Of a stretch of 64,000 nucleotides of DNA, positions 23,682 to 34,050 are shown piece after piece; positions within the stretch are counted from its first letter, which is position 1, and each line of letters starts with the position of its first letter. Below the pieces are notes generated by a model. That model was not told the origin of the DNA. It saw only the letters and a list, made by a program, of their open reading frames with translations, and made no database searches. Source of the DNA: Alphaproteobacteria bacterium (GTDB taxonomy: Bacteria > Pseudomonadota > Alphaproteobacteria > UBA2966); assembly GCA_021296255.1 (NCBI GenBank), contig JAGWAU010000009.1:1-64000 (forward strand), read 5' to 3'. The translations under genes and the position numbers were made by a program.

Positions 23682-24082
23682 GGTCTTTGAAACGGCGGCG
23701 CAACCCTAGTGATGCCCGGCGGCAGGTGCAAGGTAAGGCTATTTCGCGAGGCTGCTCAAAGTCGGGTGCATTGTCGCCCCCGGCCAGTCGAGCCAATTTC
23801 TCGATCTCCATTTTTGAGAGATTCGCGAGGCATTCGCATTTGGCCTCGACCGTTCGTGCGTAGCCCTGCGTCGTGCCCTGCTTGTAGGGGCTAACGATTG
23901 GAGGGCTGTAAAGAAAGCGTCATTTTATCTGTTTTTTCAACAAGTAAGGTTTGTATCATTCAGAATATTTCTAGTGACATCCCGTCTGCGCGGGCCGTCG
24001 ACCGCGCCGGTTGCAGAGGCGACCCGCGCCCGGGTGCATCGAACCCAAGCCACGAGGCAACAGCAGATAGGAGGTATGACCC
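23682..24082. other. Gap between thrC and the nirK fragment, without a clear gene
   Basis: The half near 23910-23980 is A/T rich (a run of six T near 23930), unlike its surroundings. I saw no FNR- or NnrR-type palindrome in front of the nirK remnant. A 64-codon minus frame over 23617-23811 overlaps the thrC start and looks fortuitous. Confidence 0.4.
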
Positions 24083-24348
24083 ATGCTACAGCTGAACAGG
24101 CGTCAGGTTCTGAAGGCCGGCGGCACGCTAGGCGCGGTGTCCGCCATGAGCCCCATGTTGGTGGCCGCGAAGGGCGATGCCGCAGCCAAGGCAGACCTCA
24201 GCGGCCTGCCGCGGGTCAAGCAGGAGCTCGTCGCCCCGCCGTTCGCGCCGGCCCACGAGCAGACCTCCATTGACGGTCCCAAGATCATCGAGGTGGAACT
24301 CACCGTCCATGAGGACAAGAGGGAGATCGACGACAACGGAACCATGGT
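24083..24348 (+). pseudogene. nirK: 5' fragment of copper nitrite reductase (nirK)
   Basis: The ATG follows a perfect GGAGGT. The first ~88 codons read as NirK: a twin-arginine signal 'NRRQVLKAGG', then 'GLPRVKQELVAPPFAPAH' and 'IIEVELTVHEDKREIDDNGTM', the start of the first cupredoxin domain. At the CCATGG around 24341-24348 the similarity stops. The remaining codons to 24433 are the antisense of a different gene. All copper-ligand regions are missing, so it cannot be functional. It shows that the lineage or a donor once had the nitrite-to-nitric-oxide step of denitrification. Confidence 0.8.
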
Positions 24349-24468
24349 CATCTGGATCGCCTCGTGCAGGGTCTCCAGCGTCGCCGACAGCGGCATGTCG
24401 ATGCGCCGCCAGATCCTGGGCTCCAGCTCCTGAAGCTCGATGCGCAGCCGCGCGATCCGCTCGCTCAC
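24341..24468 (-). pseudogene. 5' fragment of a plasmid pRiA4b ORF-3-like gene
   Basis: From a GTG at 24468 the minus strand reads 'RIARLRIELQELEPRIWRR' and 'LSATLETLHEAIQMTM', the N-terminal part of the pRiA4b ORF-3 family (usually about 150-200 residues). Similarity ends at the same CCATGG where nirK breaks, so the two genes are joined tail to tail. The family is commonly found on plasmids and near mobile elements. It follows hicB on the same strand. Confidence 0.7.
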
Positions 24469-24514
24469 CGCCCCGTTCCGTCCCCTTCAATTCGGCCGCC
24501 CCACGGCCGGGGCG

Positions 24515-24952
24515 TCACGCGGCCTCGCCGACAGTCACGGTCACACGCTTCCCGAGCTGGCGCAGAGCGCGATCAAGCGTTGCGGTCTTGGTGCTGTGTT
24601 CGGGGTTCAACATCCGCCGCACCTCGCTCTCGGCGACGTCGAGGTCCCGGGCAAGGCCGCGTTGGGAGACCCCCGCCCGTCTCCATGCCTCGTAGAGCGC
24701 CGCCTTCAACGCGATCTGCACCGGCGGAACGACAAGCGGCCGCCCCTTCCCGCCGCGCGAAGGCTCGGGCAGATCCCCGCCCTCCCGGATCGTGGCCGCG
24801 ATAAGCTCGCGCAGCAGGTCCCTGGCCTCGGCCAGGGCTTCGTCGCGGCTCTCGCCGTCCGTCGCGCCCCACCCGAAATCCGGAAACGCGACGACATGCC
24901 GGCCGTCCTCGTCGCGTACGATCTCGGCGGGATAGTTGTAGGTGTCAGGCAT
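24515..24952 (-). CDS. hicB: HicB-type antitoxin with C-terminal helix-turn-helix
   Basis: 145 residues from the ATG at 24952, behind GGAGGGA. The N-terminal half is the HicB partial RNase H-like fold ('VAFPDFGWGATDGESRDEALAEA'). The C-terminal part is a DNA-binding helix-turn-helix (SQRGLARDLDVAESEVRRML). In HicAB systems the antitoxin binds HicA and represses its own promoter; a perfect palindrome at 25211-25226 is a plausible operator. The order hicA then hicB matches the classical arrangement. Confidence 0.88.
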   Translation of the reverse strand: MPDTYNYPAEIVRDEDGRHVVAFPDFGWGATDGESRDEALAEARDLLRELIAATIREGGDLPEPSRGGKGRPLVVPPVQIALKAALYEAWRRAGVSQRGLARDLDVAESEVRRMLNPEHSTKTATLDRALRQLGKRVTVTVGEAA

Positions 24953-24984
24953 CTCTGCGTCCCTCCGGGGACATATCCGTCGTT

Positions 24985-25197
24985 CTATAATTCCTCCCTG
25001 TCGATCCCAAGGTCGGCGAGCATCCTGGCGAGCAGCCCCTTGCCGATCTCCTTCTTCCGGTCCTTGACCGTCGTTCTGCGACCGCCCGCATAGAGCGTCC
25101 CGTGCGAGCCGACGCCTTCGGAGGCCACGAACCGCACCTTCAGATCCCGGCTCCGCGCCCACTTGCGGACCCTTGCGATGAACTGCCGTTCGTTCAT
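24985..25197 (-). CDS. hicA: HicA-type mRNA interferase toxin
   Basis: 70 residues. HicA toxins are small dsRBD-like RNases whose catalytic His sits in a 'GSHGTLYAG'-type motif, seen here at about residues 30-38. The basic patch 'RRTTVKDRKKEIGKGLL' and the C-terminal 'ADLGI' also match. It ends 32 bases before hicB. The toxin is intact, so the pair is probably active and may stabilise this degraded region. Confidence 0.87.
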   Translation of the reverse strand: MNERQFIARVRKWARSRDLKVRFVASEGVGSHGTLYAGGRRTTVKDRKKEIGKGLLARMLADLGIDREEL

Positions 25198-25210
25198 GTC
25201 GCCACAATGT

Positions 25211-25226
25211 GAATCGGCGCCGATTC
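25211..25226. promoter_or_regulatory. Palindromic operator before hicAB
   Basis: GAATCGGCGCCGATTC is a perfect 16-bp palindrome, placed between the putative -10 box (25233-25238) and the hicA start (25197). This is where autorepression by HicB would act. Confidence 0.6.
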
Positions 25227-25232
25227 GCTCAA

Positions 25233-25261
25233 AGGATAGGTGCGCACATTATTGAGCGCAA
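25233..25261 (-). promoter_or_regulatory. Putative hicAB promoter
   Basis: On the minus strand TTGCGC (25261-25256) and TATCCT (25238-25233) are spaced 17 bases, immediately upstream of the palindrome. Confidence 0.45.
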
Positions 25262-25443
25262 CAATCCTGTCCCGATGACCGCCTGAGGCGCGGACGGCGT
25301 CCTGCCTCGGGCCTTCACCCCGAGGGACGTCGTCGCGCTCATCGATCATGGCGTGTTTCCTCGCCGCCGCTCACGGCGAATATCTCGATCCCCTCGGCCT
25401 GCGTGGCCCCTTCTTCTCTAATGGGCATATGACGCCCGCGCTT

Positions 25444-25707
25444 TCATCCCTTGGGTGTGGTCTCGTCCCCGTCCGAGGGCCGCGGGCCGGGCGGTATGCT
25501 GTGCCCGAGGTGCGGCGGTTTGCGGAAACATCTTACGCCGCACCGCTCCAGGTATTCGACGAGCGCGCGGCCGGCCGGCCTGAGCCGGTCGTGGTCGCCC
25601 GGCACACGCTTCCGCGGCCAGAAGCGCTCCACCTTGCGGAGCCCCTGCTCGACATCGAACAGGAATTCACGTCTCGGGACCGGCTCGAGATCGCGATCGT
25701 CGCCCAT
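25444..25707 (-). CDS. Small unknown protein next to a LexA box
   Basis: 87 residues from the ATG at 25707 (25719 is an alternative). I cannot name the family, but the sequence looks like a real protein: 'PVPRREFLFDVEQGLRKVERF' is an amphipathic start, then 'WPRKRVPGDHDRLRPA' and 'YLERCGVRCFRKPP', with two Cys and a Pro-rich tail. It is soluble and basic. Its start lies 20 bases from the LexA box at 25727-25741, divergent from the SRAP gene, so it should be induced with DNA damage. Confidence 0.55.
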   Translation of the reverse strand: MGDDRDLEPVPRREFLFDVEQGLRKVERFWPRKRVPGDHDRLRPAGRALVEYLERCGVRCFRKPPHLGHSIPPGPRPSDGDETTPKG

Positions 25708-25726
25708 ACGCCCGAGCATGCCAGAA

Positions 25727-25741
25727 GAACATATTGGGAAC
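25727..25741. promoter_or_regulatory. LexA (SOS) box, alphaproteobacterial type
   Basis: GAACATATTGGGAAC matches the direct-repeat consensus GAAC-N7-GAAC (GTTC-N7-GTTC on the other strand) exactly. It lies between two divergent starts: the small gene (25707) and the SRAP gene (25784), whose family is named for the SOS response. Confidence 0.8.
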
Positions 25742-25783
25742 AATTGACCACGTGCCCGAATGCCCGCTATTCTCGCATGGGCC

Positions 25784-26116
25784 ATGTGCGGACGGTTCAC
25801 ACAGCGGTATACGTGGGAGGAGGTTCAGGCTTTTCTCCGCCTGGCCGGGCCGGCCCCGAACCTGCGGCCCCGTTACAACGTGGCGCCCGGGCAGAAGATC
25901 GCGGCGGTGCGCGCGAGCGACGACGGACGCAGGCTCTCCATGTTGCGCTGGGGCCTGATCCCGTCCTGGGCCAGGGAGCCCAACATCGGCTACAAGCTGA
26001 TCAACGCCCGGGCCGAGACGGCAAGCGCCAAGCCTTCATTCCGGGCCGCCTGGCGCGCGCGGCGCTGCCTGATCCCGGCCGGCGGCTTCTACGGCTACCA
26101 AGCAGCGAGGCGGTGA
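25784..26116 (+). pseudogene. Truncated SRAP domain protein (YedK/HMCES family)
   Basis: The first ~100 codons are a clear SRAP: catalytic Cys2 in 'MCGRFTQRYTW', 'RYNVAPGQ', 'LRWGLIPSWA' and 'INARAETAS'. The family is about 220 residues. Here the sequence breaks at 'CLIPAGGFYGYQAARR', where relatives have GFYEW. The catalytic Glu and the later catalytic His are therefore missing. SRAP proteins crosslink to abasic sites in single-stranded DNA; this copy should lack full activity. An upstream ATG at 25760 is not needed. Confidence 0.8.
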
Positions 26117-26327
26117 ACACCGAGGTGATGGTGCGACTGCCAAATTGAACGCCGGCAAGGCTGCGACGATCGAATTTTTGCTCCTGGTCTTCAGGAAGGA
26201 TCGTCGCCAAGGGAGTGCTTGAGGAAGGCGCTTTGTCGTGTAGAGTACATGATGTGCTTCGACATCATTGGCACTTTGCTATGCGTGTTCGCAGCGTTAA
26301 GAAATCACTAGATAGGGGAGAATCTAT

Positions 26328-27422
26328 ATGTATATGGCACGTCGATTTATGATCGCCGTAACGGCTCTGGCATTCGCCGCCGTTTGGGGTCTCGTTGCTT
26401 CGAACGAAACTCAGGCGCAAATGGTAAAGGACGGCAAGATCCACATCATCTACGCCAATACCTATCAGCCAACGTGGCCGGCGACACACATCTACAACCG
26501 CGACGTGGCTCGCAAATTGGCCTCGTTCTCGAACAACCGCATCACCGTCGAAACGTTCTTCGGCAATACCCTGTGCAGTGAGCACAAGTGTGTTGAGCAG
26601 ATGGACCAGAAGTCGGTCGACCTGACCAACATCTCGGTCGGAAATGCCGGTGCTTTCGGCCGAACCCTGGACTTTCTGGTTTTACCCTATCTGTTCGAGA
26701 GCGACGAATCGGGCATCGAGATCATGCACGAGTGGCTGACGGACTATCTCAATGAACAGATGCGGCGGCCGGGTGACATGAACCTTCACATCGTCGGCTG
26801 GATGCCATGGTGCGGCTTCCGGCAATTGTTGCACAACCGCAATAAGGACATCCGGGTTCCCGCCGACCTCAAGGGCTTCAAGATGCGCACCACCAAAAGC
26901 CCCGCCGAGTTCGCGCTCATGAAGGCGTGGGGTTCGGTTGCGGTCCCCTACGACTGGACACAGGTCTACACGGGCCTGCAGTCAGGCATCATCGAAGGCA
27001 TGTTCAACATGGAATGCCACCTCGAGATGAGCGATTTCCACGAGGTGATGAAGCGAAGCACCCACGTCGACGGCGCCTGGCACATCGCAATGATGGTCCA
27101 GAACGCCGCGCGGCGAGAGGCAGAGTTGCCCGATTGGGCGCAGGACGCCATCGACCGCACCGGCCGGTATCTCGATACCACCATCCTCGCGTATGACAGC
27201 TATCTCACCAACGTGACCCTGGATACGCTTGAAGAGAAGCGTGGCGTCGCCATCTATCGTCCGAACCCCGATGAGATGAAGCTCTGGCGGCAAGGCGCGG
27301 TCAGTGTATGGGCCTCGGACGAGTTCAAGCGTACCTACGATCCGAAAATTGTTCGCCGTATCCTCAATGACCAGGGGAACGATGCGTTCATCAAAGAACT
27401 CGAAGCCGCTGGTGCTCTGTAA
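26328..27422 (+). CDS. TRAP transporter substrate-binding protein, DctP family
   Basis: 364 residues; the ATG at 26328 follows AGGGGAG. A signal peptide (to about residue 31, TQAQ) precedes a DctP-type binding protein: 'ADLKGFKMRTTKSPAEFALM' contains the conserved Arg that binds the substrate carboxylate, with 'GLQSGIIEG' downstream. It would deliver an organic acid to a TRAP permease, but no dctQ or dctM gene is nearby. A terminator follows (27446). The enzymes downstream hint that the ligand is a hydroxy or phosphorylatable sugar-acid-like compound; that is inference. Confidence 0.9.
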   Translation: MYMARRFMIAVTALAFAAVWGLVASNETQAQMVKDGKIHIIYANTYQPTWPATHIYNRDVARKLASFSNNRITVETFFGNTLCSEHKCVEQMDQKSVDLTNISVGNAGAFGRTLDFLVLPYLFESDESGIEIMHEWLTDYLNEQMRRPGDMNLHIVGWMPWCGFRQLLHNRNKDIRVPADLKGFKMRTTKSPAEFALMKAWGSVAVPYDWTQVYTGLQSGIIEGMFNMECHLEMSDFHEVMKRSTHVDGAWHIAMMVQNAARREAELPDWAQDAIDRTGRYLDTTILAYDSYLTNVTLDTLEEKRGVAIYRPNPDEMKLWRQGAVSVWASDEFKRTYDPKIVRRILNDQGNDAFIKELEAAGAL

Positions 27423-27445
27423 AGCCAGTTAGTTGTCCAACAGGT

Positions 27446-27477
27446 GGGGATGCCAATTTGGTATCCCCGTCTTTTTT
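27446..27477 (+). terminator. Rho-independent terminator after dctP
   Basis: The stem GGGGATGCC/GGTATCCCC (27446-27468) closes a five-base loop and is followed by GTCTTTTTT. It separates the binding-protein gene from the enzyme cassette, at least partly. Confidence 0.85.
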
Positions 27478-27598
27478 GATACCGTTTGTCGTCTCCCAAA
27501 CGCTATTTGGAGAAGATGTTCATTGGACTGAGAATCCGTTGGGGATTTGGAGCCAACGGGGCAATCCCGGTTCACCCTGTCTGTAAAGTGGATTGACG

Positions 27599-28639
27599 AT
27601 GGGAACGACTGCTGTGCCTGGCCGGCGAACAAGGCCCAGAATCGGAATCCTGCCGGGCGACCCCAACGGAATCGGCCCGGAGCTGTTGGCGAAACTGCTG
27701 GCCGACCTTGACGATGAGGCCAAGGCGGATGTCCTTGTCATCGGTGATAACCACGTCATCGCGGCTGGCGCCCGCACCGCGGGGGTCACGGTCTCACTGC
27801 CCGAGTGGACGGCGGATGCCGAAGCGATGGCGGAGGGCGAAACCGCCCATTTGGTGATGGAGACCATTGCCCCGGGTGACGTGACTCCGGGACGGGCAAC
27901 CGAGGCGGCCGGGCGCTCGATCCTGCAGACCCTCGAGACCGCGGTCGATCTCGCTCAAACGGGCGCCATCGACGGAATCTGCTTTGCGCCGCTCAACAAG
28001 ACGGCTCTGCACCTCGGTGGCATGACGGAAGCCGACGAGATGCAGCACATCGCCGCCCATCTTGGCCTCAAGGGACTTGCCAAGGAACTGAACGCCGTGG
28101 AGGGCCTGTGGACGACCCGAATCACCAGTCACGTCGCCCTGAAGGACGTTGCCGGCCTCATCACTGAAGACGCGATTTTGGCTGCGGTGCGCCGGTTGCA
28201 CGACACCATCTCGGACGCCGGCGTCGAAAAGCCGCGCCTCGCCGTCGCCGCGCTCAATCCTCATGCCGGGGACAATGGCAACTTCGGGCGTGAGGAGATC
28301 GACATCATCGCGCCCGCCGTGGAGCGCGCGAAGGCGGAAGGCTTCGACGTCGTCGGCCCGTGGCCTCCGGACAGCGTCTTCCTGCTGGGCAAGGACGGCC
28401 GAGTCGACGGGATTGTGGCGATGTACCACGACCAGAGCCAGATCGCCATGAAGATGATGGGCTTCGACCGTGGCCTGACGCTACTGGGCGGCCTGCCGAT
28501 GCCGATTACGAGCCCGGCGCAGGGCAGCGCCTACGACATCGTCGGCAAGGGCGTTGCCCGGGTCAGCGCGCTGCGCTTCGCCTTCGATCTGGTCGCAACG
28601 ATCGCGGCCCGCCGGCTTGCTCGGGCGTCCGCCGCATGA
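27599..28639 (+). CDS. PdxA-family NAD-dependent dehydrogenase (PdxA2-like)
   Basis: 346 residues from the ATG at 27599. 'GILPGDPNGIGPELL' opens the fold. The three metal-binding His are in 'TSHVALKDV', 'ALNPHAGDNGNFG' and 'AMYHDQSQIAMK'. PdxA oxidises 4-phosphohydroxythreonine in vitamin B6 synthesis; PdxA2 members act on 4-phospho-erythronate or -threonate in catabolism. Context (TRAP binding protein, lyase-family and dehydrogenase genes) favours the catabolic PdxA2 role, but no DUF1537 kinase is present. It overlaps the next gene as ATGA. Confidence 0.85.
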   Translation: MGTTAVPGRRTRPRIGILPGDPNGIGPELLAKLLADLDDEAKADVLVIGDNHVIAAGARTAGVTVSLPEWTADAEAMAEGETAHLVMETIAPGDVTPGRATEAAGRSILQTLETAVDLAQTGAIDGICFAPLNKTALHLGGMTEADEMQHIAAHLGLKGLAKELNAVEGLWTTRITSHVALKDVAGLITEDAILAAVRRLHDTISDAGVEKPRLAVAALNPHAGDNGNFGREEIDIIAPAVERAKAEGFDVVGPWPPDSVFLLGKDGRVDGIVAMYHDQSQIAMKMMGFDRGLTLLGGLPMPITSPAQGSAYDIVGKGVARVSALRFAFDLVATIAARRLARASAA

Positions 28640-29517
28640 CAGCGGGGCGCGAATTCCGTGACTTGCTGGACGGGGCGAAACCGCTGGTGGCGCCCCATGT
28701 GATGAACCCGCTGACGGCCAAGCTGGCCGAAAGGGCGGGGTTCAAGGCGATCTATCTGGGCGGCGGCCCCCTCGGCTACATCAATACACACCTCGAGGCG
28801 AATTTGTCGCTGGAAGAGGTCGTTCAGCATTGCATCGCCATCCGCAGCGCCTGTCCGCTGCCGCTCGTTCTCGATGGTACCTGCGGCTGGGGCGACCCCG
28901 TCCATCTGCACCGCACCATGGCCATGAGCGAAGCGTCCGGCGCCGCCGGTATCGAGTTCGAGGACCAGTTGCTGCCCAAACGCGTGCATCACCATGTCGG
29001 CATCGAACACGCCATCCCGCAAGACCTGATGGTCGCCAAGATCCGAGAGGCCGTGGCCGCACGCCGCGATCCCGACTTCGTCATCATCGGCCGGACAAAC
29101 CAGATCCGCCGCGGCAAGCACGATGACGCCATACGCCGGGCCGAGGCCTACAAGGAGGCGGGCTCCGATATGCTGTTCGTGCTGGCGCCCACGGCGGAAG
29201 ACCTGCGATTCGTGGGCGAACGGCTGCCCCCGCCGCTGATGCTGCAATCGCTCGGGGGAGGCATCGAAACGTTGGGCATGACCAAGCAGGAACTCTACGA
29301 CCTGGGATATCGCTTCCTGGTCGACCCCTCGTCGCCCCTGCTCGCCATGCACAAGGCGCTACGCATGGCTTATGAGGCCATGGCCCGGGGCGAGCCCGAC
29401 CCGACCGTCGGTGCGGGCAATGCGGCTGCCGAGCAGGACCTCATACACGAGGTCATCGGTATCGACGGGTTGCTCGCGGTGGAACTCGCCACCGTGGAAG
29501 AGGGCGAGGAAACGTAG
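28636..29517 (+). CDS. Isocitrate lyase / PEP mutase superfamily enzyme
   Basis: 293 residues from the ATG at 28636, overlapping the pdxA stop by 4 bases. It has a TIM-barrel pattern: 'FKAIYLGGGPLGY', 'LVLDGTCGWGDP' (metal Asp), 'GIEFEDQLLPKRVHHH' and 'IIGRTNQIRRGKHDD'. Lyases such as methylisocitrate lyase carry KKCGH at the lid; here it is KRVHHH, so the catalytic Cys is missing and the reaction may differ. Oxaloacetate decarboxylases, PEP mutases and hydrolases also belong to the group. Confidence 0.85.
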   Translation: MTAGREFRDLLDGAKPLVAPHVMNPLTAKLAERAGFKAIYLGGGPLGYINTHLEANLSLEEVVQHCIAIRSACPLPLVLDGTCGWGDPVHLHRTMAMSEASGAAGIEFEDQLLPKRVHHHVGIEHAIPQDLMVAKIREAVAARRDPDFVIIGRTNQIRRGKHDDAIRRAEAYKEAGSDMLFVLAPTAEDLRFVGERLPPPLMLQSLGGGIETLGMTKQELYDLGYRFLVDPSSPLLAMHKALRMAYEAMARGEPDPTVGAGNAAAEQDLIHEVIGIDGLLAVELATVEEGEET

Positions 29518-29596
29518 CCTACTCGCCGTTAACTGGCTTCGCCAGGGTTCCCGGAGTAGGAGAAGCCTCACCCAAACCTCACCGAAGGATGATGCG

Positions 29597-30553
29597 ATGA
29601 ACGTTGACGACATTCGGCGGGTGGCCGTGGTGGGCGGCGGATTGATGGGCGCGGGGATCACCCAGGAATTCGCAACCGCCGGCTATGACGTGACGCTGCA
29701 AGACATCGACGACAGTCAACTACAGGCGGCTGCCGCGCGAATCCGGGAGAGCCTGACGCTGCTCGCCGAGTATGAACTGGTCGAGGCAGCGTCAGTCGAG
29801 GCGATCCTTGGGCGGGTGACGTGCACCACGGAACTGCAGGCGGCTGTATCGAAAGCGGACCTCGTCGTCGAGGCGGCCACCGAGAACGTGGAATTGAAGC
29901 AAGAACTGTTCCGCTCCATGAGCGGGTTCTGTCCGGTACACACCATCCTGGCGAGCACGACGTCCGCCATACATCCCGACAAGCTGGCGCAGGCCACCGA
30001 TTGCCCGGAACGCGTCGTGGTCGCACACTTCGCCTTTCCCAACTATCTGATCCCGCTGGTGGAGATGGCGCGCGCCGCTCAAACGTCGGATGAGACGACG
30101 GAGACGGTCTATGCATTGCTGGAAAAGATCGGCAAGCGTCCGATCGTCATGAAAGCGCCCCTGCCGGGGTTCGTCTCAAACCGGCTGCAGATGGCCATGC
30201 TGCGGGAGGCGCTCAACATCGTCTCCCAGGGCGCCGCGGCGCCCGAGGACGTCGATACCGCCGTTCAGAACGCTTTCGGCCGGCGCTATGCGGTCACCGG
30301 ACCGCTGGCGGTGTACGACATGGCGGGACTCAACACTCTGACAAACGTGTGGCGGCAGACCGCCCCCCATCTCGCTACCACTGACGAGCCCTTCAACTAT
30401 ATCCGGGAGAAAGTCGCAGACGGCAAATTGGGCCCGAGCACCGGCGAGGGAATCTTTCACTGGACGCCTGAATCCACCGAGGCACTACGCCGCCGCCTGA
30501 TGGACGGCCTGATCGCCATCGAGCAATGGACCCGCGCGCAAGAAGAGGCGTAA
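29597..30553 (+). CDS. 3-hydroxyacyl-CoA dehydrogenase family protein
   Basis: 318 residues from the ATG at 29597 (AAGGATG upstream). The N-terminal Rossmann motif is 'VVGGGLMGAGITQEFA'. The active-site region 'ASTTSAIHPDKLA' and 'AHFAFPNYLIPLVEMA' keeps the Ser and His of the family; 'NPxx' of classical enzymes is FPNY here. Relatives oxidise 3-hydroxybutyryl-CoA, L-carnitine or L-gulonate. The last gene of the pdxA2 cassette; 79 bases after the lyase-family gene. Confidence 0.88.
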   Translation: MNVDDIRRVAVVGGGLMGAGITQEFATAGYDVTLQDIDDSQLQAAAARIRESLTLLAEYELVEAASVEAILGRVTCTTELQAAVSKADLVVEAATENVELKQELFRSMSGFCPVHTILASTTSAIHPDKLAQATDCPERVVVAHFAFPNYLIPLVEMARAAQTSDETTETVYALLEKIGKRPIVMKAPLPGFVSNRLQMAMLREALNIVSQGAAAPEDVDTAVQNAFGRRYAVTGPLAVYDMAGLNTLTNVWRQTAPHLATTDEPFNYIREKVADGKLGPSTGEGIFHWTPESTEALRRRLMDGLIAIEQWTRAQEEA

Positions 30554-30744
30554 GTCTGCCCGTTCAGTACGCGCGTGAACAGGGATTCGCCCCCCTGACC
30601 GACCCCCACGAAGTGGTCCGGTTTCATTGTTAGTGCATTAACGGTTTACCGACACGAAACGCCCGGACGCAGATCATCCCCACTCGTTGCGACCTCTGGT
30701 CCTTCAGGTCCTCTTCCTCTGTCATTCCGCCGCGCGCTGCCCTG

Positions 30745-31365
30745 TCACGCCGCCCCGGCGCCGCTCGACCACATGCGCTCAGCGATCGCCTGCTCCTCGG
30801 CCCCGACGGCGTCGGCGTAGATCGCCGTGGTCGAGAGCTGGGCGTGGCCGAGCCACTTCTGAACCATGTTGAGAGGGATCCCGGCCTGCACGGCCGCAAC
30901 ACCGAACCCGTGCCGCAGGCCCTTCGGGCTCGCCTGCGGACCGCTGATCCCGGCCATGGACATGACCTCGGACACCCGCCGCCAGGCCGTCGCGCGGCCC
31001 CACGGCCATAGCAAGACGCTCCTGCCTTCGTCGCGGCCGCGCTGCGCCTCCCTGAGCCCGTGCACCAGGTCGAGGGCATCGAGGACCGCCGAGGGCACGG
31101 GCACGGCCCTGTAGAGGCCGCCGCGGCGCTTCTTGAGGCTCTCGAACACGATCGTCCCGCCGGCGAGGTCCACCCGGTCCGCGGTGAGCGCCAGGGCCTC
31201 GCTGACGCGGGACCCCGTGTAGGCGAGCGTCATGCAGAACGTGCGCGCCTGCCTGCCGGCCTTCCCGGCGGCCTTGAGGAAGGCGTCGCGCTCGTCCCTG
31301 GTGAGGTACTTGCGCTGCCCCGTGGCGTCGTGGAGTTGAAACGTGATCCCCGATAAGTGTTTCAC
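30745..31365 (-). CDS. Short tyrosine recombinase (integrase catalytic domain only)
   Basis: 206 residues from a GTG at 31365 ('[15 protein letters not shown]'); a longer start at 31467 is possible. The catalytic residues are R53 ([11 protein letters not shown]), K78/K79, R151 ([10 protein letters not shown]), H174 ([10 protein letters not shown]) and Y183 (AIYAD). Box II reads K-x-x-R in place of H-x-x-R. The N-terminal core-binding domain of phage integrases is missing, so this is either a minimal recombinase class or a reduced copy. It marks the right end of the accessory block. Confidence 0.87.
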
Positions 31366-31432
31366 CTCAGTGTCAAAAAAACCCGGCAGGGTCGGGCTGG
31401 GAGGCGAATCCTGGCGAATCGCGGTGCGATCG

Positions 31433-31459
31433 TGAAACAGAATCACCAATAGTGTTTCA
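31433..31459. promoter_or_regulatory. Inverted repeat TGAAACA-N13-TGTTTCA before the recombinase
   Basis: Arms at 31433-31439 and 31453-31459; a third half-site TGTTTCA lies at 31358-31364, over the recombinase start. The set could be an operator or recombinase-binding arms. Confidence 0.45.
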
Positions 31460-31594
31460 GGCACCATCAGCGAGTGGGCGCAATACCGCCAGAGTTTCGG
31501 GGTCTTCGAGAGTCGGTAGGGTATTCTGGCCGCTGGCGGGCGAGACACCCAGAACAACCACCAGAATCACGAGAAATGATCGGATGACAAACAT
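31457..31594 (-). CDS. Possible 45-residue secreted peptide
   Basis: On the minus strand a frame reads [16 protein letters not shown], then 'VSPASGQ' (a signal-peptidase-like site) and an acidic 22-residue tail ending 'LRPLADGA'. It overlaps the start of the divergent GGCT-like gene by 11 bases. No clear ribosome binding site is visible. The export signal is convincing by eye, but such a short frame can arise by chance; I have no family for it. Confidence 0.35.
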
Positions 31595-32150
31595 TGCATG
31601 CCTTGGCTGGGGATCCTTGGTCTGGGACCCAAGAGATTTACCGATCCGATGGTGCTGGTTCGACGATGGGCCGCTGGTTCCCGTTGAGTTTGCACGGCAG
31701 TCGAAAGACGGTCGAATCACCTTGGTCATAGTGCACGGCGTCAGAGACGTCGAGATCGACCCTGTCCGCTCGCTCTGGGCTCTGATGGACGACAAACGCC
31801 TCGAGAAGGCTAAGAAGCATCTCAGAGCACGTGAAGGAAGCTCGCTCAAAGACATTAAGGAATGGTCCTGCGGATCAGCACCTCCAGATTGCATACCGAA
31901 GCTGGACGATTGGGCACTCGCAAGAAACCTGGATGCGGTCGTCTGGACAGGGTTGCCGCCAAGGTTTGTGGATAAGAAAGATGGCGAGCCTCCCAGCGAG
32001 ATAGAGGTCGTTAGCTACCTTCGACAACTTACTGGAACCAAGCGGGACAATGCGGAACGTTACATTCGCCGAGCACCCCGACAGATTGACACCGCATATC
32101 GGCGGAAGATCGAAGCGGAGCTTGGCTGGGCGCCTAATCGGAACTTTTAG
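31584..32150 (+). CDS. Gamma-glutamylcyclotransferase-like fold protein
   Basis: 188 residues from the ATG at 31584. '[12 protein letters not shown]' resembles the YGSN/YGSL-type start of the GGCT (BtrG/AIG2) fold, and '[18 protein letters not shown]' is the following strand pair. The rest is diverged, with a basic C-terminus. Members cyclise gamma-glutamyl amines; the catalytic Glu cannot be placed with certainty. The base composition is lower in G+C than that of the neighbours, consistent with acquisition. Confidence 0.6.
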
Positions 32151-32355
32151 GTGCCGGGCCCACTCCGGAGACACGCCCTCAGGCGTTCAGGCCGCTGCAC
32201 GGGTTTTTCGATTCATCCCTGCCCGGCGGCTTTCATTGTCATAAAGGACATTTTGTTGAATATTTTCCGAGCCGCCCGCCGGTACAAAACGGCAGGCAGC
32301 TGTTGGAGATACCCGGTCCACAACCGCGCGTATAACCTACCGTCGAGGTTGCGGA

Positions 32356-33510
32356 ATGACTGACGATCGCCGACGAGCCCGCCGAGTAAGAGCTAGCGCA
32401 ATTGTCGTTTCGCTATTGCTGGGCACGACTTGCGGCGGTCTCGCGGACGCCTCCGAGCCGCGCGAGTACCGCTCCGAGAAGCATCCCTTCCGTCTTGTCC
32501 CGGTCGGCGGCCCCTTCGACCAGGCATGGGGCATGACCTTCCTCCCCGGCGGGCGCATGCTTGTGACCGAATTGGACGGCAATCTCCGTATTCTACAGCC
32601 GGGCGAGAGGCCGTCGGAACCGCTTCCGGGGTTGCCGCGGATCGAGTCCTACGGCCAGGGCGGGTTGATGGATGTCGTCCTCGATCCCGGCTTCGCAACC
32701 AACCGGAGGCTCTATCTGAGCCACGTCTGGGACGCTGCGGGCGGCAAAACGACGGCGATCGGCACCGCACGGCTGGACGACGATCGGCTTGGCGGATTCG
32801 GGATTATCTTCATCGGCCGCGCGGGAGGCGGCTCGAGCCGGCATTTCGGTTCGCGGCTGCGATTCTCTGAGGACGGCAAGCTGTTCGTCACCATCGGCGA
32901 TCGCGGCCACCGGCCGAACGCCCAGGATCTCGGCACCCATGCCGGCGCAATTCTCAGACTCAATCCCGACGGCACCGCCCCGGCCGACAACCCCTTTGTC
33001 GGCCGTGCCGGAGCGCTACCGGAAATCTGGTCCTACGGCCACCGCAACCCGCAGGGTCTCGCCTTAGATCCCGCCACCGGCCAGCTGTGGTCGCAAGAGC
33101 ACGGTCCGCGCGGAGGAGACGAGGTCAACCTGATCGAGCGCGGTCGGAACTACGGATGGCCGACGATCACCCATGGCCGCAACTACGACGGCACCAGCAT
33201 CACGAACGAGACCGCGCGTCCCGGCATGGAACAGCCCAAGACCTACTGGGTGCCCTCTATCGCCCCTTCGGGGCTGACCGTCTATCGCGGCAACAAGTTT
33301 CCCCTTTGGAACGGCAACCTCTTCGTCGGGGCGCTGCGCGCGCAACTCCTCGTGAGGCTGGAGATCGACGGCCAAAGAGTGGTCCACGAGGAGCGCCTGC
33401 TCACGGATTTCGGTAACCGGATACGGGACGTGCGCACCGGCCCGGACGGGCTGATTTACTTGCTATTGGACGAGCACAACGCAGCCGTCTGGCGTTTGGA
33501 ACCGCTCTAG
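32356..33510 (+). CDS. PQQ-dependent aldose sugar dehydrogenase, exported (YliI/GdhB-like)
   Basis: 384 residues. The signal peptide ends near residue 32. The six-bladed propeller motifs are complete: 'QAWGMTFLPGGRMLVTE', 'GLMDVVLDPGF', the catalytic-His region 'RHFGSRLRFSEDGKLFVT', 'GDRGHRPNAQDL', 'SYGHRNPQGLALDP' and 'WSQEHGPRGGDEVNL'. Such enzymes oxidise aldoses in the periplasm with PQQ and pass electrons to the respiratory chain. No PQQ synthesis gene lies in the window. Confidence 0.93.
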   Translation: MTDDRRRARRVRASAIVVSLLLGTTCGGLADASEPREYRSEKHPFRLVPVGGPFDQAWGMTFLPGGRMLVTELDGNLRILQPGERPSEPLPGLPRIESYGQGGLMDVVLDPGFATNRRLYLSHVWDAAGGKTTAIGTARLDDDRLGGFGIIFIGRAGGGSSRHFGSRLRFSEDGKLFVTIGDRGHRPNAQDLGTHAGAILRLNPDGTAPADNPFVGRAGALPEIWSYGHRNPQGLALDPATGQLWSQEHGPRGGDEVNLIERGRNYGWPTITHGRNYDGTSITNETARPGMEQPKTYWVPSIAPSGLTVYRGNKFPLWNGNLFVGALRAQLLVRLEIDGQRVVHEERLLTDFGNRIRDVRTGPDGLIYLLLDEHNAAVWRLEPL

Positions 33511-33511
33511 G

Positions 33512-33748
33512 CTACGAAGCCGTCGCAACCGTCACCATCCATGCGTTAAGGTCCTCCCCGCCGGCCTGACAACCATAACCGCGCTCCGGCGCATCGATGC
33601 CGAACGGGCGAATCCGGGTTCCGCCGATCTTGAGCGAGTCGCCGTCGACCACCCCTGCCTGAGCCGACATGTCGGCGTGAATGGGCCATGCCCAAGCTAC
33701 AACCGAGAGCACGATGCAGGTTGCAATGAGGATGGGTGCCGGTCGCAA
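33512..33748 (-). pseudogene. 5' fragment of a thermonuclease (SNase-like) gene
   Basis: After a signal peptide (PILIATCIVLSVVAWAWP) the sequence 'GVVDGDSLKIGGTRIRPFG' and 'IDAPERGYGC' is the beginning of the staphylococcal-nuclease fold, with its first metal Asp and Arg. After about 60 residues it ends in unrelated sequence, so most of the domain and the catalytic Glu are missing. Its stop lies against the 3' end of the PQQ dehydrogenase. Confidence 0.7.
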
Positions 33749-34050
33749 TAATCCATGCTGGTCAGGTGGCGACAGTGGTAGTCTCTAGCTCCCGTTCTTG
33801 GTCTCTGTACCCGAATTGACTTGATGAGTGAGAGAAGAAAATTCTCTCGTTCACTTACGCAGTAGAGCCGGTTGAGTTTGTAAACAACTCACCTCCCAGA
33901 CCGCATCTGGGCCATCGTCGTTTACGAAATCGAGTGGTGTGACGCAGATATCCACATTATCCTATTGGATACAAAGACAAATTTTACTAGTTACAAAACC
34001 TTCATACGCACAATTCTGGAAGCCGCCCTCGCGAACTGAATAGCGGCGAC
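33749..34050. other. A/T-rich intergenic island
   Basis: About 300 bases with a much lower G+C than the rest and no gene that I can support. An imperfect hairpin (GAGAGAA...TTCTCTC) lies near 33831-33850. It may hold the far end of acquired DNA, since core genes resume at 34051. Confidence 0.45.

Follow-up and report, generated by a model that had tools for sequence, protein, structure and literature searches.

Introduction

In PdxA and in D-threonate 4-phosphate dehydrogenase (PdxA2), the phosphate of the substrate is held by four residues: a pair formed by His and Thr, one Asn and one Arg (H136, T137, N283 and R292 in E. coli). Another member of the family, which acts in an L-ascorbate pathway, reportedly decarboxylates 2-carboxy-L-lyxonate. 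Here, a PdxA-like enzyme is described that is encoded in a 64,000-nucleotide stretch of contig JAGWAU010000009.1 of an uncultured alphaproteobacterium (assembly GCA_021296255.1; the whole stretch is referred to as the window) beside genes for a phosphoenolpyruvate (PEP)-mutase/isocitrate-lyase superfamily enzyme (the lyase-like enzyme), a 3-hydroxyacyl-CoA-dehydrogenase-like enzyme and a solute-binding protein of the tripartite ATP-independent periplasmic (TRAP) type. The original prediction for these genes had been a cassette around a PdxA2 enzyme, lacking the usual kinase and permease. Our analysis points, with about even confidence, to a catabolic cassette that needs no kinase and acts on an unphosphorylated hydroxy-carboxylic acid, which is probably small and either polyhydroxylated or branched. 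The four genes are as follows.

26328..27422, + strand: DctP-type TRAP solute-binding protein (receptor), 364 aa; PF03480, 105 bits
27599..28639, + strand: PdxA-family enzyme, 346 aa from ATG; PF04166, 282 bits (cut-off 27)
28636..29517, + strand: PEP-mutase/isocitrate-lyase superfamily enzyme, 293 aa; PF13714, 110 bits (cut-off 31.5)
29597..30553, + strand: 3-hydroxyacyl-CoA-dehydrogenase-like NAD-dependent dehydrogenase, 318 aa; PF02737 and PF00725

The gene calls are real and not chance reading frames, because the Pfam scores lie far above the cut-offs and the ratio of nonsynonymous to synonymous substitution rates (dN/dS) against a second species of the same genus (G002) is 0.04-0.19. The open frame of the PdxA-like protein begins at TTG 27593, and the alternative ATG 27599 is most likely the start, because the orthologs align from this ATG. 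The three enzyme genes stand in the predicted order, with a 4-bp ATGA overlap between the first two (28636-28639), and 79 bp separate the stop of the lyase gene (29517) from the start of the dehydrogenase gene (29597).

The PdxA-like enzyme

The PF04166 score places the PdxA-like protein in the PdxA superfamily in the broad sense, and, ranked by bit score, D-threonate-4-phosphate dehydrogenase is among its closest relatives of solved structure (approximately 176 bits; PDB 2hi1 and 6e85). The fold, the three metal-binding His residues and the Lys of the MK motif are common to both enzymes, and H180, H224, H279 and K287 are accordingly retained in the window protein (P0002 numbering). However, the alignment columns of the canonical phosphate residues are occupied by E148, M149, T296 and I305 (same numbering), so that the phosphate-binding His, Asn and Arg of PdxA2 are missing. 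The same pattern extends to a clade of 30 aligned members, made up of the window protein together with relatives of 38-87% identity: all 30 have D-E instead of the canonical G-H in the first motif, T or S instead of the Asn, and an “IRTS” segment devoid of Arg. The housekeeping PdxA of the same genome (L001) retains all of the phosphate-binding residues. In the maximum-likelihood tree, the clade is split from both PdxA and PdxA2 at 100/100 support, and this split is unaffected by three long branches that attach on the PdxA side. The “PdxA2” label of the original prediction is thus not upheld.

These replacements indicate that the substrate of the PdxA-like enzyme is probably not phosphorylated. 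Because the phosphate-binding residues are lost across the clade, no kinase should be needed, and the absence of the DUF1537 kinase, which the original prediction had pointed out, is to be expected: PF07005, the N-terminal domain of DUF1537, has no match across the whole assembly (97% complete), and the control genomes did match. The score of D-threonate-4-phosphate dehydrogenase among the best solved relatives could still be read in favor of a D-threonate or D-erythronate pathway of the PdxA2 type, with a kinase that is a different protein or escaped detection in assembly gaps. With the phosphate-binding residues replaced, the clade separated from PdxA2 in the tree and the kinase search negative in a nearly complete genome, such a pathway is very improbable and mostly refuted, as the original prediction had anticipated; a different, kinase-free catabolic route is likely. 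It also follows from the lost residues that an assay on phosphorylated four-carbon acids is less promising. The TphB (terephthalate dihydrodiol dehydrogenase) type, compared by score, is a poorer match to the window protein, at 100 bits versus 176 for PdxA2.

The close PdxA relatives likewise lie in kinase-free sugar-acid clusters, with the DUF1537 kinase annotated in none of seven plasmid neighborhoods, where dehydratase, aldolase-family, aldehyde dehydrogenase, gluconolactonase and TRAP or tripartite tricarboxylate transporter (TTT) genes adjoin the PdxA gene. On plasmids of Ruegeria, Paracoccus, Sphingomonas and Variovorax, PdxA relatives at 47-52% identity to the window protein lie beside a rhamnonate-type dehydratase gene, variously accompanied by DHDPS-family, aldehyde dehydrogenase, gluconolactonase, YncE/WD40, cytochrome b561, TRAP or TTT genes. 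We take these gene sets to match the L-ascorbate pathway, so that some kinase-free clusters of close PdxA relatives appear to resemble it. The window protein belongs to the same supported clade as the PdxA proteins from these ascorbate-like clusters, and it resembles 2-carboxy-L-lyxonate decarboxylase in the PdxA fold family, in the implied unphosphorylated, sugar-acid-type substrate and in the absence of a kinase.

The locus might accordingly encode a form of the L-ascorbate pathway peculiar to this lineage, in which the PdxA-like enzyme would decarboxylate 2-carboxy-L-lyxonate and the downstream enzymes would be encoded elsewhere in the genome. The pathway is a published one (Stack et al. 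2020, doi 10.1021/jacs.9b09863). We nevertheless consider this variant quite unlikely. None of the ascorbate companions (WD40/YncE, cytochrome b561, the lyxonate dehydratase type, the DHDPS family or aldehyde dehydrogenase) is present in the cassette or around the corresponding gene pair of G002, the search having been confined to these two places. In the cassette, the place of the dehydratase, DHDPS-family and aldehyde dehydrogenase genes is taken by the PEP-mutase-like partner, which is not known to have a role in the ascorbate pathway. Additionally, the window group forms a separate branch of the clade with a Gln of its own for the His of the (A)HGTA motif.

In four genomes of the family to which the window belongs, the gene immediately before a PdxA relative is 3-hydroxyisobutyrate-dehydrogenase-like, so that the pairing with a hydroxyacid dehydrogenase recurs. 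At L133 (7025-8907) and L134 (7108-9008), such a gene stands directly before a kinase-free PdxA gene, with a 4-bp overlap in L134; both pairs lie near dihydroxyacid dehydratase and Ldh_2 genes, and an RraA-like gene is next in L134.

The lyase-like enzyme

The PF13714 score and the fold both place the lyase-like protein in the PEP-mutase/isocitrate-lyase superfamily. The NCBIfam prpB model gives 151 bits against a cut-off of 354, and the scores of the models for PEP mutase, phosphonopyruvate hydrolase and CPEP are also far below theirs. The predicted structure adopts the superfamily fold, with 2-methylisocitrate lyase (3eoo) as the best Foldseek match (E 6e-22, TM about 0.77); the model has a pLDDT (predicted local distance difference test) of 72.5, falling below 50 in loops 44-55, 83-89 and 113-123, the last of which includes the HHH loop, and is used for the fold and not for active-site geometry.

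As originally noted, KRVHHH occupies the position at which lyases carry KKCGH, so that the KKCGH-type loop with its catalytic Cys is lost. The alignment with seven relatives at 50-91% identity (six full-length, one cut by a frameshift) reveals that the HHH loop is common to the whole subfamily, whose aligned members share PKR[VA]HHHxGIEH, with one extra residue, as well as D-x-x-x-G-[WF]-G-D-P, RTN and YLGGG; the other aligned members of the superfamily have CGH (CGS in one), D-x-D and RTD. Likewise missing are the FVEAP Glu and, on the next strand, the Asn. In comparison with PrpB (1mum, 3eoo) and the superfamily, with which the fold and about 30% identity are shared, the window enzyme retains the first Asp of DxD, the Glu of EDQ and the Lys-Arg of the gate loop, whereas the second Asp of DxD, the Cys, the Asp of RTD, the Glu of FVEAP and the Asn of NM are altered and the gate loop contains an extra His. 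The altered positions thereby include the Cys of catalysis, an Asp of the metal site and the Glu and Asn that bind the substrate. Residues D80, D87, E109, H118-H120, E124, H125, R153 and N155 are invariant in the subfamily.

The loss of residues with these roles would be compatible with a catalytically dead protein that regulates PdxA or serves as its scaffold. This explanation is improbable, because the lyase gene is under strong purifying selection (dN/dS 0.04 between the window and G002), the new residues are invariant and other catabolic clusters have retained paralogs, which suggests that the activity is changed, not lost. It is conceivable, although less likely than not, that the HHH-type subfamily performs a reaction new to the superfamily, in a rebuilt and possibly His-rich metal site, and that together with the phosphate-site-free PdxA it constitutes a hitherto undescribed pathway of two enzymes acting on an unphosphorylated hydroxy acid. 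In a literature search for work on this subfamily, none was recognized.

The subfamily is rare. A profile search detects it in 5 of 385 sampled alphaproteobacterial genomes, and in 1 of 398 genomes of a phylum-wide draw, that one being the window's own; two further relatives were found by profile search in G217 and G376. Among genome contigs, two close relatives, both within the genus, and one distant relative were retrieved, and a search of plasmids gave no match at 1e-40.

The paralogs occur in several settings. In the window's genome (G000), a paralog with 74% identity (L039 8208-13305, contig C115) is clustered with Rieske oxygenase, amidohydrolase, SDR and FAA-hydrolase genes, and its 86%-identical counterpart in G001 lies near orthologs of amidohydrolase, SDR and thioesterase genes. 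In G006 (C143; L042 9207-14228), a lyase relative precedes genes for CoA-transferase III, enoyl-CoA hydratase, a corrinoid protein and an MTTB-type methyltransferase; the gene order is the same in G004 (L045), where the lyase gene is split by a frameshift. In G081, a paralog stands beside a dihydroxyacid-dehydratase/MlrC pair.

The receptor and the dehydrogenase

In the receptor, R187, the Arg of KMRTT, is conserved and is expected to bind a carboxylate. The predicted absence of a permease is confirmed: no DctQ or DctM gene lies beside the receptor gene, and the nearest DctM gene is 92 kb away, next to a DctP gene of its own. The genome contains 30 DctP and 24 DctM matches; for 12 of the 30 DctP matches, including one fragment, a DctM is lacking within 10 kb on the same contig, which is an upper bound since some lie near contig ends. 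Orphan receptors of one sequence group are encoded on contigs C2, C16, C28, C50 and C64 of the genome and at 26328-27422 of the window, and two paralogs of this group (C86 and C89) do have adjacent permease genes. Receptor paralogs elsewhere adjoin TauD-type dioxygenase, isochorismatase and 3-hydroxyisobutyrate-dehydrogenase-like genes, and this placement beside catabolic enzymes suggests that the orphan receptors feed a shared permease. Genomes rich in binding proteins, not all of which have a neighboring permease, have been described for the TTT-family Bug proteins of Bordetella, with AdpC as an example (PMC5812351); the receptors of the window's genome differ in being of the DctP TRAP type and in their smaller scale (about 12 of 30 DctP without DctM).

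The dehydrogenase has 3HCDH_N and 3HCDH domains, a GGGLMGAG motif and the His-Glu pair (H144/E156), which place it in the 3-hydroxyacyl-CoA dehydrogenase family; use of a CoA substrate is putative. Its best solved relative in a PDB search is the FHMPC dehydrogenase of vitamin B6 breakdown (4om8, 191 bits). The His-Glu pair is common to both, whereas the score of the window enzyme in the corresponding NCBIfam equivalog is 218 against a cut-off of 500.

Conservation and genomic setting of the cassette

The PdxA-lyase pair is retained in G002 over 1886 collinear bases at 78% identity, with dN/dS values of 0.08 for PdxA and 0.04 for the lyase. A decayed duplicate of the locus is present on contig C7 of the window's genome (65240-66570; L004 8240-9570) and consists of a receptor fragment, an intact PdxA gene (87%) and a remnant of the lyase gene that covers only its first tens of bases. 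The PdxA copy of C7 has a dN/dS of 0.12 relative to that of the window and is therefore still constrained. The linkage of receptor and PdxA is thus present at two loci of the genome. The presence of the kinase and a TRAP permease beside these genes in relatives would have spoken against the original prediction; neither was found there.

Three further features of the locus are as follows.

23739..34049, no strand: 10.3-kb stretch holding the cassette, delimited by blastn/tblastn collinearity with G001, G002, G003 and G005
27442..27472, + strand: hairpin resembling a Rho-independent terminator, located after the receptor gene and before the PdxA gene; stem of 14 pairs, then a run of T
30745..31557, - strand: tyrosine integrase just downstream of the dehydrogenase gene; PF00589, 72 bits

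In the four relatives used for the collinearity analysis, thrC adjoins M32 carboxypeptidase/SURF1 genes without the 10.3 kb of the window, and the stretch also encodes the tyrosine integrase and a shortened SRAP gene. An insertion in the lineage of the window is the simplest reading; tRNA or repeat ends of the insertion were looked for, and none were found.

Several observations weigh against the four genes being one functional unit or against the chemistry assigned to it. A strong terminator (RNA fold -22 kcal/mol, z -3.6) sits in the gap between the receptor and PdxA genes (170 bp, or 176 when counted from ATG 27599), a feature absent from the original prediction, and the receptor gene therefore probably forms a separate transcript. 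The gene after the PdxA-lyase pair of G002 is dGTPase-like, and the dehydrogenase ortholog of G002 (70%) starts 134 bases into another contig, at its edge, with its upstream neighbor beyond the contig. The lyase paralogs occur beside unrelated gene sets, and we know of no substrate for any member of the subfamily. Additionally, the Gln by which the window group differs from the rest of the PdxA clade makes the transfer of chemistry uncertain, even from the ascorbate-pathway enzyme.

It is therefore possible, although we are inclined to doubt it, that an integrase-associated insertion gathered unrelated catabolic genes by chance, of which only PdxA and the lyase cooperate while the receptor and the dehydrogenase serve other processes. 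The integrase-bearing stretch missing from four relatives, the terminator after the receptor, the G+C content of the receptor region (57% versus 64-66% for the enzyme genes), the separate location of the dehydrogenase in G002 and the scattered receptor and lyase paralogs are all consistent with a chance neighborhood. However, the order of receptor, PdxA and lyase recurs in the decayed duplicate, receptor paralogs elsewhere also adjoin catabolic enzymes, and the dehydrogenase is under purifying selection (dN/dS). The four-gene unit is nevertheless looser than originally described, with firm support only for the PdxA-lyase pair: the dehydrogenase and the receptor and lyase paralogs do occur apart from these partners, whereas the pair does not. 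The explanation is weakest where it assigns the receptor and the dehydrogenase to one pathway with the pair.

Proposed route

In the kinase-free cassette that we favor, the periplasmic receptor would capture the acid for delivery to a TRAP permease whose genes lie elsewhere. With NAD and a divalent metal, the PdxA-like enzyme would then oxidize and decarboxylate the acid; alternatively, it may only decarboxylate it with NAD used catalytically, as is reported for the relative from the ascorbate pathway. The PEP-mutase/isocitrate-lyase-like partner would split, hydrolyze or decarboxylate the product in its rebuilt active site, and the 3-hydroxyacyl-CoA-dehydrogenase-like enzyme may oxidize an accompanying hydroxyl group. 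In this route, the substrate class, the order of the steps and the shared permease are inferred.

The common annotation of PdxA relatives is 4-hydroxythreonine-4-phosphate dehydrogenase, a label also used in the seven plasmid neighborhoods. The residue pattern provides a simple test that splits the kinase-free clade from PdxA and PdxA2 and corrects this annotation. The lyase subfamily, in which the active site is altered at several positions together under strong selection, is the part most worth experiment and could reveal a new C-C bond reaction.

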